The position numbers and the translations under genes are program-made. The notes below the pieces were generated by a model, which was not told where the DNA came from, did not search any database, and saw nothing but the letters and a program-made list of their open reading frames with translations. From Cryobacterium melibiosiphilum (GTDB lineage Bacteria; Actinomycetota; Actinomycetes; Actinomycetales; Microbacteriaceae), in assembly GCF_003602235.1 (NCBI RefSeq), contig NZ_QZVS01000085.1, positions 1 through 64,000 on the forward strand: a stretch of 64,000 nt of DNA, read 5' to 3'. Of this stretch, positions 59,430-64,000 are shown piece after piece (the stretch's first letter is position 1; the number at the start of each line of letters is the position of its first letter).

Positions 59430-59837
59430 ATGGCAATCATCAAGATTCAGGGCACCGTCGGCAGCATCTTTCAGGACGGCAAGTGCGTGAAGCTCATCGA
59501 GAAATCGACCAGCGGTGACAAGGAATACACGAGCCGGTACACGGCGTGGTTCGACCAGTCGCCGGGGCTGTCCGAGGGCGATCACGTCAACGTCTCCGGC
59601 TTCTTTTCTGTCAAGCAGGGCAAGCCGTGGCAGGACCGCGACGGTAACGAACGCCAGTCCATCGACGTGAACGTGAACAAGGCGCGAGTCGACACGGGCA
59701 AGGGTGAGGAATCGCAGCAGAACACGCAGCAGAGCACGCAGCAGTCGCCGCCCGCGGATGACCCGTGGCCCGCGACTCAGCCCGCATCGAGCCCCGCGAC
59801 TGAGCCCGACTGGATCTCCCAGTCCACGCCTTTCTAG
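59430..59837 (+). CDS. Phage single-stranded DNA-binding protein
   Basis: 135 residues. OB-fold pattern (MAIIKIQGTVGSIFQDGKCVKLIEKST, EGDHVNVSGFFSVKQGKPWQDRDGNERQSIDVNVNKA), a Gln/Pro/Ser/Thr-rich linker and a tail ending PDWISQSTPF, which resembles the SSB partner-binding tip but with fewer acids. It protects single strands in phage replication. The next gene starts 4 bp later. Confidence 0.75.
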   Translation: MAIIKIQGTVGSIFQDGKCVKLIEKSTSGDKEYTSRYTAWFDQSPGLSEGDHVNVSGFFSVKQGKPWQDRDGNERQSIDVNVNKARVDTGKGEESQQNTQQSTQQSPPADDPWPATQPASSPATEPDWISQSTPF

Positions 59838-59840
59838 CCC

Positions 59841-60080
59841 ATGACCACCGAATGGCGTTCCAAAGCCAACTGTCTCGGCACCGACCCGGAGCTGTTCTTC
59901 CCGACCGACAGTCGGGCTGAGAATCGCCTGGAAGTCGCCGACATCTGCGGCAACTGCACCGTTTCGGCCGAGTGTCGGGGATTCGCAGACCAGAGTCAGC
60001 CGACCCGCGCTCACGGAATCTGGGGCGGGTTGAGCGTGGAGGAAAGAAAGCGATTGAGAGAGACGAAAGGGACAGCATGA
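59841..60080 (+). CDS. WhiB-family regulator, phage-borne
   Basis: 79 residues. Cys11, Cys36, Cys39 and Cys45 form the C-x-C-x2-C-x5-C iron-sulfur set, and GIWGG at 59-63 with SVEERKRLRE completes the family signature. Phage WhiB proteins such as that of TM4 interfere with host WhiB2-type control of division. It overlaps the next start by four bases. Confidence 0.92.
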   Translation: MTTEWRSKANCLGTDPELFFPTDSRAENRLEVADICGNCTVSAECRGFADQSQPTRAHGIWGGLSVEERKRLRETKGTA

Positions 60081-60928
60081 CCATCACCAGCTATGACGAT
60101 TTCCTGAGAGAGAAAGTCAACTTCGATAAGTCGTTCGGGTTCGAGATCGACCGCGACGAGATCGTTCAGGTATCAACTAGCGATTCAGTTAACTGCCTGA
60201 TCGGCGATAGAATTAGAGCGACCCCAAACCGAGTGCTTCAACACTCGCCGGGGCCTAACCCTGAATCAATTCGACTTGATTGGAGGGCTACCGTGAATGG
60301 TACCCGAAACGACATCCCCGCCCCTCGATTAAACAACAGTGGGCGGCAGAAGAACCCTCTCGATTCCGACCGCTACGGGCGGTTGGCCGTTGTGGAATCC
60401 GTTGTGGGCGGCTGGCTTTGCAAGTGTGATTGCGGGAGCGCCGTGATCGTCACGGGATGGCGACTCCAGAACGGCAAAGTCGTCTCGTGCGGATGCTTTC
60501 ATCGCGAGCGTCAGCATGAAACAGCCCGGACCCACGGCATGAAAAACACGCAGGTCTACACCGCCTGGATCAACATGCGCCAGCGGTGCTCGAATCAGAA
60601 CAGGCCAGATTGGGCCAACTATGGCGGGCGCGGCATTCGAGTATGCACGGCTTGGCAAGATTCGTTCGAAGCCTTCCTGGCCGACATGGGCGAGCCCAAA
60701 ACGGGTGAGTCAATCGACCGTATCGACGCCAATGGGAACTACGAGCTGGGCAACTGCCGATGGGCAACGGCTACCCAGCAATCCCGAAATAAGCGGTCAA
60801 ATCGGATGCTCACAATCAACGGTGAGGCACGAACGCTAGTCGAGTGGTGTGAGCTGCGCGACGTTCCATATTTTACGGCACATGCCCGACTAAGGCGCGG
60901 CGCGACAGCAGAAGAGGCCATCGCATGA
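60077..60928 (+). CDS. HNH homing-type endonuclease fused behind a copy of the next gene's first ~28 codons
   Basis: 283 residues. Residues 1-28 (DDFLREKVNFDKSFGFEI) repeat the start of the downstream helicase-methyltransferase at both protein and DNA level. From ~73 a self-standing nuclease begins: WLCKCDCGS and VVSCGCFH zinc cysteines, YTAWINMRQRCSNQ, YGGRGIRVCTAWQDSFEAFLADMGEP, SIDRIDANGNYELGNCRWATATQQSRNKRSN, and an eWC...Rl..GataeeAi tail as in phage HNH endonucleases. An internal GTG (60293) has its own GGAGGG. Residues 29-72 match neither part. Confidence 0.8.
   Translation: MTITSYDDFLREKVNFDKSFGFEIDRDEIVQVSTSDSVNCLIGDRIRATPNRVLQHSPGPNPESIRLDWRATVNGTRNDIPAPRLNNSGRQKNPLDSDRYGRLAVVESVVGGWLCKCDCGSAVIVTGWRLQNGKVVSCGCFHRERQHETARTHGMKNTQVYTAWINMRQRCSNQNRPDWANYGGRGIRVCTAWQDSFEAFLADMGEPKTGESIDRIDANGNYELGNCRWATATQQSRNKRSNRMLTINGEARTLVEWCELRDVPYFTAHARLRRGATAEEAIA
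60282..60295 (+). promoter_or_regulatory. Internal ribosome site and GTG start of the endonuclease
   Basis: GGAGGG (60282-60287) five bases before GTG 60293, in frame with the larger ORF. It suggests that the nuclease was a free-standing gene (60293-60928, 211 aa) that can still be made alone. Confidence 0.65.
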
Positions 60929-63513
60929 AGTCCATCGACTATGAAGACTTCCTCAGGGAGAAAGTCAATTTTGATCGATCGTTCGGGTTCGAAATCACGG
61001 AGTCCGAGATGAACCCGATCCTCTTTCCGCATCAGAAAATGATCGTTCAGTGGGCCGTAAAGGGCGGCCGGCGTGCGATCTTTGCAGCATTCGGCCTGGG
61101 CAAGTCGTTCATGCAGATCGAGACGCTGCGGCTGATCACGAAGCACAAGGGCGGCCGGGCCCTGATCGTCGCGCCCCTCGGGATGCGGCACGAGTTCATC
61201 GGTGACGGCGCCAAGCTCGGCGTTGACGTGACGTTCATCAAGACGGCGGCGTTCGGACTGCCTGAGACGGGCATGTTTGTCACCAACTACGAGAGCGTGC
61301 GTGACGGCAAGATCGACCCGAACCTGTTCACGGCGACCAGCCTGGACGAGGCTAGCGTGCTGCGCGACTACGGGAGCAAGACGTTTCAGACGTTCCTGCA
61401 GCTGTTCAAGGACATCGCGTTTCGGTTCGTGGCTACGGCGACCCCGAGCCCAAACCGGTTCAAGGAGCTGTCGCACTACGCGGCCTACCTCGGCATCATG
61501 GACTCGGGGCAGATCCTCACCCGGTTCTTCCAACGCGATTCATCTTCGGCCGGCAACCTGACCCTGCACCCGCACAAGGAGCGCGAGTTCTGGCTTTGGC
61601 TGAACACCTGGGCGTGCTTCATCCAGAAGCCCAGCGACCTCGGCTACTCGGATGACGGTTACGAGCTGCCCGAGCTCGACGTGCGATTCCACCGTGTCGA
61701 GATCAAGGGCGGCGAGGTGCGCATGGACGGCGACGGGCAGGCGGTTCTGTTCGCGAACGGCGCGCTGGGACTATCGGGAGCCGCGACCGAGAAGCGAAAC
61801 AGTCTCTCGGCGCGGATCGAGAAGCTGGCCGAGCTGGTCGACGAATCGCCGGATGATCATTTCGTGCTCTGGCACACGTTGGAGGATGAGCGCCGCGCGA
61901 TCAAGAAAGCCGTTCCCGAGGCCGTCGAAGTGTTCGGCGCGCTGGACTTGGACGAGCGTGAAGAGCGGGTCGTGAAGTTCTCGAACGGTGAGTCGCGGAT
62001 ACTCGCGACGAAGCCGAGTCTTTCCGGGTCGGGGTCGAACTTCCAGCGTCATTGCCACCGGGCCATTTACGCCGGGATCGACTTCAAGTTCAACGACTTC
62101 ATTCAGTCGGTCCACCGCTTGCACCGATTCCTACAGAAGGAGCAGGTGCGCATCGATGTGATCCTGGCCGAGTCCGAAGAGTCTGTGATCGAGATCCTGC
62201 TGGCCAAGTGGGAGCAGCACAAAAAGCTGACCTCGAGCATGAGTGACATTCTGCGGGAGTTCGGCCTGGACGCTGGCGCGATCTCGCAGGCGCTCACCCG
62301 CTCGATGGGTGTTGAACGTGTTGAGGTCGCCGGCGAGGGCTGGCAGTTCGCGCTGAACGATTGCGTTCTCGAGACTCGGGACCACATGGAGACCGATTCG
62401 GTGGACATGATCCTGTCAAGCATCCCGTTCGGCACCCAGTATGAGTACTCGCCCAGCTACAACGACTTCGGTCACACGGATGACAACCTCCATTTCTGGG
62501 AACAGATGGACTACCTGACGCCGAATCTGCTGCGGGTGCTCAAGCCGGGCCGAGTCGCCGCCATCCACGTGAAGGACCGCATCCTGTTCGGCAACGTCAT
62601 GGGCACCGGCAACCCGACCGTAGAGCCGTTCCACGCGGAGACGCTGGCCCACTTCCGCAAGCACGGGTTCGACTACCTGGGCATGCACACCATCGTTACC
62701 GACGTGGTGCGCGAGAACAACCAGACCTACCGCCTCGGCTACACGAAGATGCGCGCTGACGCATCAAGTATGGGCATGGGGATGCCGGAATACGTGCTGC
62801 TGTTCCGCAAGCCGCAGACGGACCGGTCGAAGGGCTGGGGCGACGTGCGGGTGACGAAGGACATTTACGATCCGACGAAGCCGGTGAGCTGGGAGGATGA
62901 CGAGCCTGAGGCTGAGACGCCGCCGAACAACCCGGTCGATGGGTACTCGCTGGCACGCTGGCAGATCGACGCGCACGCGTTCTGGCGCTCGTCGGGTGAC
63001 CGGCACCTCACCCCTGAGGAGCTGTCGCAGCTCAAGCCTGAGGACATGTCGCGGCTGTTCACGGCGCAGACGGCCAATAGCGTCTATGACTACGAGAGCC
63101 ACGTCAAGACCGGCGAGCTGCTGGCCGGTCGAAAGCGGCTGCCGTCGACGTTCATGTCACTCGCCCCGGCGTCCTGGCATCCCGATGTGTGGCACGACGT
63201 CAACCGCATGCTCACCCTGAACGGTGAGCAGTCGCGGCGAAACCTCGTCATGCACACGTGCCCGCTGCAGTTCGACATCGTGGACAGGCTCATCACCGAG
63301 AAGAGCAACCCGGGCGATCTGATCTACGACCCGTTCGGCGGGCTGGGAACGGTCCCGCTGCGGGCGCTCAAGCTTGGGCGTCGCGGCCGTGCTGCCGAGC
63401 TGAACCCGGTCAGCTACTACGACGGAGTGAAGTACCTCGAAGCCGAATCGGCCGAACAGGACATGCCGACGTTGTTCGACCTGATCGACCTTGCTCAAGA
63501 TGATGCCGCATGA
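60925..63513 (+). CDS. Helicase-DNA methyltransferase fusion, phage-type
   Basis: 862 residues. Residues 1-440 form an SNF2/SF2 helicase: Walker A AAFGLGKS (54-61), motif II LDEAS (140-144), motif III TATP, and a C-terminal QSVHRLHR (motif VI-like). Residues ~465-850 form a beta-class DNA methyltransferase: motif IV as SSIPF (498-502), then RENNQTYRLG, WQIDAHAFWRSSG and motif I DPFGGLGT (802-809) with AAELNP. Order IV-before-I fits beta-class enzymes. SSIPF departs from the usual S/D-PPY. Possible role: modification of phage DNA against host restriction. Confidence 0.88.
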   Translation: MKSIDYEDFLREKVNFDRSFGFEITESEMNPILFPHQKMIVQWAVKGGRRAIFAAFGLGKSFMQIETLRLITKHKGGRALIVAPLGMRHEFIGDGAKLGVDVTFIKTAAFGLPETGMFVTNYESVRDGKIDPNLFTATSLDEASVLRDYGSKTFQTFLQLFKDIAFRFVATATPSPNRFKELSHYAAYLGIMDSGQILTRFFQRDSSSAGNLTLHPHKEREFWLWLNTWACFIQKPSDLGYSDDGYELPELDVRFHRVEIKGGEVRMDGDGQAVLFANGALGLSGAATEKRNSLSARIEKLAELVDESPDDHFVLWHTLEDERRAIKKAVPEAVEVFGALDLDEREERVVKFSNGESRILATKPSLSGSGSNFQRHCHRAIYAGIDFKFNDFIQSVHRLHRFLQKEQVRIDVILAESEESVIEILLAKWEQHKKLTSSMSDILREFGLDAGAISQALTRSMGVERVEVAGEGWQFALNDCVLETRDHMETDSVDMILSSIPFGTQYEYSPSYNDFGHTDDNLHFWEQMDYLTPNLLRVLKPGRVAAIHVKDRILFGNVMGTGNPTVEPFHAETLAHFRKHGFDYLGMHTIVTDVVRENNQTYRLGYTKMRADASSMGMGMPEYVLLFRKPQTDRSKGWGDVRVTKDIYDPTKPVSWEDDEPEAETPPNNPVDGYSLARWQIDAHAFWRSSGDRHLTPEELSQLKPEDMSRLFTAQTANSVYDYESHVKTGELLAGRKRLPSTFMSLAPASWHPDVWHDVNRMLTLNGEQSRRNLVMHTCPLQFDIVDRLITEKSNPGDLIYDPFGGLGTVPLRALKLGRRGRAAELNPVSYYDGVKYLEAESAEQDMPTLFDLIDLAQDDAA

Positions 63514-63651
63514 CTATTTCGGGTAGCGACGCAGAAACCGCAGGATGGCGTCTGTCACGGTCTCACCGCGTCTCTCCGCTTCCGCTTGCGCAGCTTTCCA
63601 AACGTCATCTGGAACTCGCACGGAGCGGGGCGGGGTGTGCGATGTCTTCAT
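63514..63651 (-). CDS. Ribbon-helix-helix protein, very small
   Basis: 45 residues: RSVRVPDDVWKAAQAEAERRGETVTDAILRFLRRYPK, a complete Arc/CopG-type RHH with strand and two helices. The start overlaps the stop of the 67-aa gene by ATGA. It ends 1 bp after the convergent methyltransferase stop. Likely an autoregulator or antitoxin. Confidence 0.75.
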   Translation of the reverse strand: MKTSHTPPRSVRVPDDVWKAAQAEAERRGETVTDAILRFLRRYPK

Positions 63652-63851
63652 GCGAGCTCCAATTCCGCGAGGCGATCGGAGAACCACATGCTGATGGCGT
63701 CGTGCATGTCGGTTCCCCAGTGCTTGTCAATCTGGAATTCGGCGGCGCGCACGAGCTCGGCGCTTTCAGCTCGGTTATAGGCGCGGTTCATGAGGGGATC
63801 TTCGCCGAGTGCGCGGGCTATTCGGTTGAGGGTGTTTGTGATTTTCGACAT
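63648..63851 (-). CDS. Small helical protein, partner of the RHH protein
   Basis: 67 residues: MSKITNTLNRIARALGEDPLMNRAYNRAESAELVRAAEFQIDKHWGTDMHDAISMWFSDRLAELELA, wholly helical, no family recognised. First gene of a two-gene leftward operon with its own promoter. The order unknown-then-RHH could be a toxin-antitoxin pair, but no toxin motif is visible. Confidence 0.65.
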   Translation of the reverse strand: MSKITNTLNRIARALGEDPLMNRAYNRAESAELVRAAEFQIDKHWGTDMHDAISMWFSDRLAELELA

Positions 63852-63857
63852 GCCTCA

Positions 63858-63886
63858 ACCCTAGTGCGCGTAAATACACGTGTCAA
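63858..63886 (-). promoter_or_regulatory. Consensus promoter of the leftward small operon; leaderless
   Basis: Read leftward: TTGACA (63886-63881), a 17-bp spacer, then TAGGGT (63863-63858). The expected start of transcription, about 7 bases on, falls on the A of ATG 63851. The palindrome ACACGTGT (63876-63883) and two AATACACG direct repeats overlap the -35 and could bind the RHH protein. Confidence 0.7.
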
Positions 63887-63889
63887 TAC

Positions 63890-63950
63890 ACGGGGAACGC
63901 TATTTGACCTGATCGACATCGAGGCGGAGTCAGAGACTGTAGCCGTCTAA
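63890..63950 (+). pseudogene. Possible 3' remnant of a second helicase-methyltransferase copy
   Basis: The rightward frame ends GTLFDLIDIEAESETVAV-stop. TLFDLID is shared with the tail of the intact methyltransferase (PTLFDLIDLAQDDAA), and TTTGACCTGATCGAC matches at DNA level apart from one base. It is short, so chance or a conserved clamp-binding-like peptide are alternatives. The last 50 bp of the window hold nothing I can recognise. Confidence 0.35.
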
Positions 63951-64000
63951 CCCACCCCCGCTATTCACCCTGTAGCGCGCACTACCCAGGCACCTATCGA

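Follow-up and report, generated by a model that had tools for sequence, protein, structure and literature searches.

The DNA analysed here (hereafter the window) is a 64,000-nt stretch of the Cryobacterium melibiosiphilum contig NZ_QZVS01000085.1, and the locus under study, at positions 59841–63950, contains a complete helicase–DNA methyltransferase gene with an HNH endonuclease gene in front of it. A 53-kb prophage in IMG/VR is identical to the window across the 7,924 nt compared, and the locus is part of a virus integrated in the bacterial genome. Along the forward strand, a piece of 29 codons, which appears to be a stranded native 5′ end of a resident helicase–methyltransferase gene (60077–60163), is followed by a junction (60164–60206), a conserved structured leader that is a predicted RNA element (60207–60302), the HNH gene (60293–60928, 211 aa from GTG) and the complete methyltransferase gene (60925–63513, 862 aa), which is chimeric at its ends and whose start overlaps the HNH stop as ATGA. 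On the reverse strand lie an Arc-like ribbon-helix-helix (RHH) gene (63514–63651, 45 aa from its ATG) and a 67-aa open reading frame (ORF; 63648–63851), which overlaps the RHH gene as ATGA. The last feature, again on the forward strand, is a piece of 17 codons plus a stop, apparently the stranded native 3′ end (63897–63950). Directly upstream of all these, a WhiB-like regulator gene at 59841–60080 overlaps the stranded start via ATGA. An earlier note on this DNA had reported that the first ~28 codons of the methyltransferase gene occur twice (at 60077 and 60925), with an HNH endonuclease between the copies and a two-gene leftward operon behind the gene; the duplication holds with a length of ~29 codons, the nuclease is confirmed, and the operon stands with its gene limits corrected to those given above.

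The frame open from 60077 would encode a 283-aa fusion of the stranded start and the HNH protein, and it matched phrog_374, HNH endonuclease (E 3.6e-56), so that the nuclease domain of the free-standing HNH homing endonucleases is present. The coding sequence is most likely the one from the GTG at 60293, which has its own Shine-Dalgarno sequence, GGAGG, six nt upstream. The closest HNH protein in the phage collection was Tiff81 gp70 (58.8%); no Pfam family at 0.001, no NCBIfam match and no PADLOC match were obtained. The product of the complete gene matched phrog_16 DNA helicase (E 5.3e-116) and the Pfam family N6_N4_Mtase (E 1.9e-11), and among named organisms its nearest relative, at 90% in the best-matching segment, belongs to Cryobacterium sp. 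Y11.

Both ends of this gene are found a second time outside it. The 5′ repeat pairs 60075–60148 with 60923–60996 (77% over 74 nt, ungapped; by blastn, 82.8% over 58 nt, E 5.6e-8). The 3′ repeat pairs ACGCTATTTGACCTGATCGAC (63897) with ACGTTGTTCGACCTGATCGAC (63469), identical at 18 of 21 positions with all three differences synonymous; by itself it is too short to rule out chance. The frame behind the leftward genes ends in TLFDLIDIEAESETVAV. Four relatives, L008, L009, L010 and L011, carry the helicase–methyltransferase gene as a single, uninterrupted gene, the kind of homologue that the earlier note had proposed to search for, and their ends match the stranded pieces. When the window was scanned with the last 54 nt of L008, L009 and L010, position 63897 ranked first every time (37, 40 and 41 of 54, respectively), the best site outside the locus reaching 31 of 54; the proposal that the final frame resembles the C-terminus of the gene is thereby borne out. 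The relatives' genes end in EPVAV and a stop, followed by a terminator-like stretch, and both are matched in the window from 63897 onwards. At the other end, the stranded piece is identical over 75 nt to L010 at 61 positions, to L009 at 57, to L008 at 54 and to the inner copy at 53, while the inner copy agrees with L010 at 51 of 75. At the 22 sites that separate remnant and inner copy, L010 sides with the remnant at 14 vs 4 (p 0.03). The sequence upstream of the stranded start, AGACGAAAGGGACA-CATGAC, is common to L010, whose start context (AGACGAAAGGGACACCATGAC) agrees with the sequence before 60077 and not with that before 60925. Because the start context and the relatives' terminal 54 nt match the outer copies, these pieces are read as the resident gene's own ends, namely the native start with its ribosome-site context and the native C-terminus. 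From codon 29 onwards the sequence departs from the relatives' gene, and the junction at 60164–60206 had no significant match elsewhere in the window or in L196.

The inner gene has a body resembling that of the relatives. In the alignment of codons 60–869, 27 windows of 30 codons were compared with three relatives; 69 of these 81 comparisons were 82–97% identical and the remaining 12 were at 62–81%, several of the low-identity windows being low between the relatives as well. The maximum-chi-square test placed a 5′ break at 61051 against L008 and at 61042 against L009 (0 of 2000 permutations each), with divergence of 36–38% before and 9–13% after the break (0.36 and 0.09 for L008). These breaks delimit a putative replacement 5′ end of about 39–42 codons (60925–61050). 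A 3′ break lies 20–22 nt from the gene end (0, 3 and 0 of 2000 permutations for L008, L009 and L010, respectively), delimiting a divergent 3′ end (63489–63513) made up of the last 20–22 nt before the stop. When the relatives were compared mutually, L008–L009 and L009–L010 had no significant 5′ break, L008–L010 and L009–L010 had no 3′ break, and the 3′ break of L008–L009 was located 255 nt from the end. The simplest reading of the inner gene is that its ends were replaced on a resident-like body. The same gene has a separate in-frame insertion near residue 779 in Radiance (L006, 4771–5744), and a contig from one Thermoplasmata archaeon metagenome-assembled genome carries two copies of a relative of it (L119 and L120).

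The arrangement is sporadic. Relatives were examined as the best 80 of 351 in IMG/VR, the 80 loci from genome_contigs being left out of the check for HNH genes and fragments; a remnant or an HNH gene was found solely in L007, which is the same prophage, and the site is uninterrupted in L008–L011. A search with the N-terminus of the gene found it at one place in each of 300 phage records, although a short diverged fragment could be missed in this way. Among the HNH homologues, 120 listed of the 7,685 found were screened by comparing their first 70 residues with a profile of the helicase–methyltransferase N-terminus. Four matched, namely the window's protein (P0001), P0008, P0044 and P0075, with 22.5–48.5 bits and E-values from 6e-7 to 4.6e-15; the scores then dropped to 7.0 bits, and none of 2400 shuffled controls went above 5.9 bits. 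Since the matches end at different residues (27, 30, 36 and 44), the four fusions look like separate events near one place. That the lead and the HNH domain form one ordinary fused gene was rejected: a recognisable helicase start is confined to P0008, P0044 and P0075 of the other 119 homologues listed, each breaking at a different residue. P0044-like proteins were found in 2 of 396 genomes, one being the window's own and the other a partial match. In the 80 loci from a search with the four-protein alignment and 16 more, the helicase gene was present in three, L215 and L300 (the window's prophage) and L216. In Tiff81 and L216 the HNH gene stands directly before the helicase–methyltransferase gene and overlaps it by the same ATGA, a stranded start being found in neither; this order is the layout expected of a donor.

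The HNH gene is preceded by a leader of ~96 nt, which contains the HNH start and comprises three predicted hairpins. Hairpin 1 (60222–60253) pairs CCCC with GGGG outside and CGAGTG with CACTCG inside; hairpin 2 (60259–60287) holds the Shine-Dalgarno GGAGG (60282–60286) in its 3′ arm; and hairpin 3 (60285–60305) has the GTG start codon in its loop. Hairpins 2 and 3 are mutually exclusive. The minimum-energy fold of the window copy contains hairpins 1 and 3, not 2, while that of the second copy, described below, contains hairpins 1 and 2; neither copy is unusually stable for its composition (z −1.56 each). Further copies were collected by three pattern scans of IMG/VR. Alignment A1 consists of 22 sequences, from which L241, L242, L246 and L247 were dropped as having the same leader and start as others. 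With a hand-drawn structure of two hairpins, pairing holds in 94.7% of the cells of A1, and for 9 of the 22 pairs both sides have changed. Of five covariation measures, four were reached by 0 of 500 shuffles, and versions slid along the alignment pair at most 50%. RNAalifold by itself found double changes in 9 of 19 pairs of A1. In alignment A2, which comprises 37 matches (2 of these rows being halves of copies also included whole) and was fitted to the model, hence leaning towards it, both-side changes were seen in 16 of 22 pairs. For hairpin 3, the arms of 26 copies were swapped, leaving out L213, L214, L238, L248, L253, L254, L259 and L262; own arms gave a mean of −9.0 vs −7.0 kcal/mol for swapped arms (0 of 5000 permutations), a difference to which the linked ancestry of the arms may contribute. 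Just before hairpin 1, a TANNNT box occurs in 20 of 22 copies vs 2.6% of random 26-mers from the same loci; in the window it reads TAGAAT (60208–60213, forward strand), a −10-like element of a predicted promoter. Taken as a model, this structure is predicted to hide the ribosome site and the start codon and so to control when the endonuclease is made. The possibility that the leader is simply part of the HNH coding frame was rejected, as it precedes different families and its stems covary.

The model R1 gave the window leader 99.4 bits, the window copy being among its 22 source sequences. In whole genomes, R1 had hits in 8 members of the family (398 searched) and in 12 of the phylum (396 searched), both figures including the window's own genome, and the weakest of these matches resemble plain GC-rich hairpins by eye. 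Among 32 scanned copies, the gene behind the leader belongs to HNH, endonuclease or endonuclease VII families in 24, two of which are on the window's own contig; the remaining eight are three replication initiators, one DNA-repair family member and four with nothing informative. The 32 exclude L235 (whose gene is cut off by the contig end), a further copy in L234 and the low scorers L256, L261, L265–L267, L269 and L270; the low-scoring L255, L263, L264 and L268, also outside the 32, were scanned and had no nuclease. The copies preceding phage replication initiator genes are L198, L203 and L254, and in L198 and L203 a short MQST-type start persists, perhaps the scar of a lost nuclease. The window leader had no match in Rfam 15, and at gathering scores eight leader loci contained two tRNAs and nothing else. 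No description of the leader turned up in searches of the open-access library, which is no proof that none exists; it is apparently undescribed so far.

A second leader–HNH cassette (G000:C94:77890-77985 and L196:17585-18563) is located in the same IMG/VR prophage, outside the window. Its leader copy (G000:C94:77891-77978) is 85% identical to that of the window and stands before a different HNH gene (HNH2). The layout is the mirror image of the first: the cassette sits in the 3′ end of another gene, L196:17585-17899, whose phage relatives are annotated as HNH endonuclease. The tail right behind HNH2 is identical at 52 of 54 positions to the native end of the uninterrupted gene in L274, and the next 35 nt are identical. 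The present end of the gene, by contrast, agrees with L274 at 38 of 54 nt and keeps 14 of 17 residues; the difference between tail and present end is significant (p 0.0005). This cassette surfaced in a first protein-level search whose other matches (L245 and others) were discarded by eye as low-complexity and out of frame. In a targeted protein-level test of 24 complete leader–nuclease loci, the stranded-end signature stood out in two, both of this prophage, with scores of 82 and 101 vs null maxima of 52 and 45 (0 of 552 null pairs each). The next locus, L258, scored 39 in each of the two tests, a value reached by 7 and 9 of the 552 null pairs, and was not counted. A DNA-level search of the 24 loci found the stranded ends of the window alone, with L252 and L258 at chance level and the second cassette missed. 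A third, weaker leader copy (L259; G000:C94:99958-100050) stands before another HNH gene and has no stranded end. In another phage, a strong leader copy (L284:2361-2449, 58.9 bits) lies ~600 nt behind a relative of the second-locus HNH gene. The region upstream of the terminase is a hot spot for homing-type nucleases according to PMC10448857.

This one prophage thus shows the arrangement twice: ends of native type on the outside, a divergent end on the inside and an HNH gene separating them. In addition, three further fusion proteins join the same gene start to the same HNH family. Judging from these sequence patterns, an HNH gene with its own leader probably entered the 5′ end of the methyltransferase gene by one-sided homing, with cutting and repair as the presumed steps. 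In a donor phage, the HNH gene would have stood immediately ahead of that phage's methyltransferase gene, as in Tiff81 and L216. The HNH protein would cut the uninvaded gene near codons 27–44, and repair would copy the donor through homology in the gene body, with a crossover near codons 39–42. The short side would be closed by illegitimate joining, leaving the resident gene end outside. Between them, the insertion and the divergent new end would destroy the cut site and still leave the methyltransferase frame open, and the hairpins would have to open before the endonuclease is made. On the 3′ side, the regulator pair would be a separate insertion. The earlier note's central proposal, that an endonuclease invaded one methyltransferase gene and left the old ends outside, agrees with the existence of the uninterrupted relatives. 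Two findings that it had named as fatal to an insertion, relatives carrying the HNH gene with the same lead and no methyltransferase, and an insignificant 3′ similarity, did not materialize.

Several points weigh against this interpretation. L008 (9 vs 6) and L009 (12 vs 6) are not significantly closer to the 5′ remnant than to the inner copy, and the evidence of 5′ ancestry from the coding sequence, which is a short remnant, is to be taken as moderate. In the comparison with L010 the 5′ break is placed at 61216, a position at which L008 and L010 also break from each other; this region recombines among the relatives anyway and is not special to the prophage. P0008, P0044 and P0075 are known as proteins alone, without genomic context or a restored downstream gene, and in the donor-like L216 the helicase gene is a distant relative (34%) that seems to be interrupted. 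The body of the second-locus gene matches L274 at 218 of 261 positions, and relative to this the fall to 38 of 54 at the end is weakly supported (p 0.03), so that not just the end but the entire gene may stem from a donor. Stranded ends were not detected in 22 of the 24 complete leader–nuclease loci. As for the leader, the fifth covariation measure of A1, which counts further pair types, was reached by 25 of 500 shuffles, and the HNH genes of Tiff81 and L216 have no leader. Because of these two leaderless genes, we infer that leader and nuclease reassort.

One compound insertion, bringing in the HNH gene, a complete donor methyltransferase allele and the leftward operon together with deletion of the resident interior, would account for both stranded ends by a single event, and the body could derive from a related donor; the second-locus body is also less like L274 than the tail (218/261 vs 52/54, p 0.01), which fits a donor-derived body. 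We nevertheless regard this explanation as unlikely, since the body at the first locus groups with the relatives of the remnants and breaks near both ends. As the body resembles the same relatives as the remnants do, a whole second allele, which the earlier note had joined with the operon into one mobile unit, is conceivable but unneeded: replaced ends suffice, given the breaks near 61042–61051 and ~20 nt from the 3′ end. Its further suggestion that the operon travelled with the HNH–methyltransferase pair is not needed either: the pair occurs without the operon in Tiff81 and L216, the 67-aa gene was confined to this prophage in the searches, and no operon accompanies the gene end stranded at the second cassette. 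A reading in which the HNH gene is a bystander of ordinary mosaic recombination or of a tandem duplication gains some plausibility from the relatives, which recombine in the same part of the gene anyway (the L008 vs L010 break). It is hard to reconcile with the same HNH family being fused to the 5′ end of the same gene in three other proteins and with an HNH cassette marking the second stranded end, and its probability is accordingly rated low.

Introns and inteins are common hosts of homing endonucleases, and Radiance has an insertion in the same gene near residue 779; the HNH gene might then reside in a self-splicing intron or an intein, the duplicated 5′ end being an exon remnant. This is exceedingly improbable, as none of the 4227 covariance models of Rfam 15 matched in 59800–64000 at E up to 1, a start and a stop of its own delimit the HNH ORF, and the 5′ sequence is duplicated, not merely interrupted. 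Group I and group II introns were rejected for want of an intron RNA core by Rfam, and an intein was rejected on account of the separate ORF with its own stop and the duplicated target start. The locus might also be a natural home-and-rescue element, whose replacement end would resist cutting and would have been selected as a component of the mobile unit instead of arising as a by-product of conversion. In its favour, the gene end at the second cassette keeps 14 of 17 residues at 38/54 nt identity, both genes are open, and engineered home-and-rescue drives reportedly use this logic; yet any diverged donor allele would give the same picture, and 22 of 24 leader–nuclease loci are without a detected stranded end, which leaves it with a slim chance. 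More broadly, and as a tentative and rather doubtful proposal, one-sided homing at these loci could exemplify a class of homing module in which a transplantable promoter and riboregulator leader drives several nuclease families and brings along a cut-resistant gene end, acting as a natural home-and-rescue drive with stranded ends as its footprint.

The leftward pair is the least certain part of the locus. The RHH gene and the 67-aa gene part the methyltransferase gene from its native end without a nuclease, and the pair looks like a separate insertion. The RHH protein matched an Arc-like repressor family (phrog_6506, E 2.1e-11, with the longer frame 63514–63687), and the 67-aa protein had no family match in Pfam, PHROG, PADLOC or NCBIfam; of the earlier suggestion of a regulatory or toxin-like operon, the regulatory half is retained and the toxin-like half found no support. 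No relative of the 67-aa protein was found beyond this prophage in the phages and viral_contigs searches, and the RHH protein had no PADLOC or NCBIfam match. A defence or toxin–antitoxin role of the operon was rejected, the RHH, 67-aa and HNH proteins all being without PADLOC or NCBIfam matches. The annotation lists no methyltransferase in the 3.1 kb viewed around the closest RHH relative (GMA1). Before the leftward pair, at 63852–63896, TTGACA and repeated GTGTATT/ACAC half-sites can be seen by eye, as in a self-regulated RHH operon.

Comparison with known systems suggests that the stranded ends are most likely a variation on known homing biology and that the shared leader is the part likeliest to be new. 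In the accessible text of Arsenault et al. (2025; PMC11855218), Pacc40 gp60 is described as a helicase plus methylase, closest to the Tiff81/Sashimi genes that have an HNH-like gene directly upstream, and the HNH insertions (ShiLan domain, Pacc40) sit within a host gene whose frame differs from theirs and runs through them, with no duplicated ends and no detectable ribosome site. That text covers hidden HNH insertions and the Tiff81 order, and neither stranded ends nor a leader appear in it. The target is of the same kind as in Pacc40, and the window's HNH DNA is 71% identical over 179 nt to a segment of Pacc40 gene 60. Here, in contrast, there are a separate HNH gene, a Shine-Dalgarno sequence, a structured leader and a stranded gene end, and the HNH sequence shares its reading frame with the stranded start and terminates ahead of a complete, separate gene. 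The endonuclease ORFs of fungal mitochondria (Glomus, Allomyces), as described in PMC3630166, similarly come with a gene end of different ancestry that replaces the native one, which is left stranded farther on. Native ends are likewise stranded at both loci of the prophage, beside a putative replacement end whose different ancestry has moderate support at both. The fungal cases concern LAGLIDADG or GIY-YIG ORFs in mitochondria and C-terminal ends, while here a phage HNH family in a prophage strands one 5′ and one 3′ end.

For the T4-type endonuclease genes I-TevI, mobE and segB, the accessible portions of PMC2988022 and PMC3014915 report RNA structures hiding the ribosome site, as predicted here, and co-conversion of flanks. 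Their hairpins are described there gene by gene, whereas here one covarying leader serves several nuclease families in many phages. The SAS/ESAS elements of cluster K mycobacteriophages also form a conserved element before the starts of different families, about half with inverted repeats; by what is accessible of PMC3203893, their sequence is GGGATAGGAGCCC and they are not tied to nucleases. The leader consensus around the Shine-Dalgarno sequence is GATTGGAGGGCT and, compared by eye, does not agree with GGGATAGGAGCCC.

The observation is real and more general than the window alone could show. As a footprint of homing that can be read from sequence, stranded gene ends indicate where the cut probably lay before any biochemistry is done, and the two cassettes in one prophage together with the three fusion proteins suggest that this footprint can be searched for across phage genomes. 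If cutting is confirmed, the second cassette would be a natural case of the logic of engineered home-and-rescue drives. The leader, finally, gives a means of tracking down homing nucleases of various families in the phages of actinobacteria, and it opens to experiment the questions of how phages put up with nucleases that spread themselves and of what makes the switch open.

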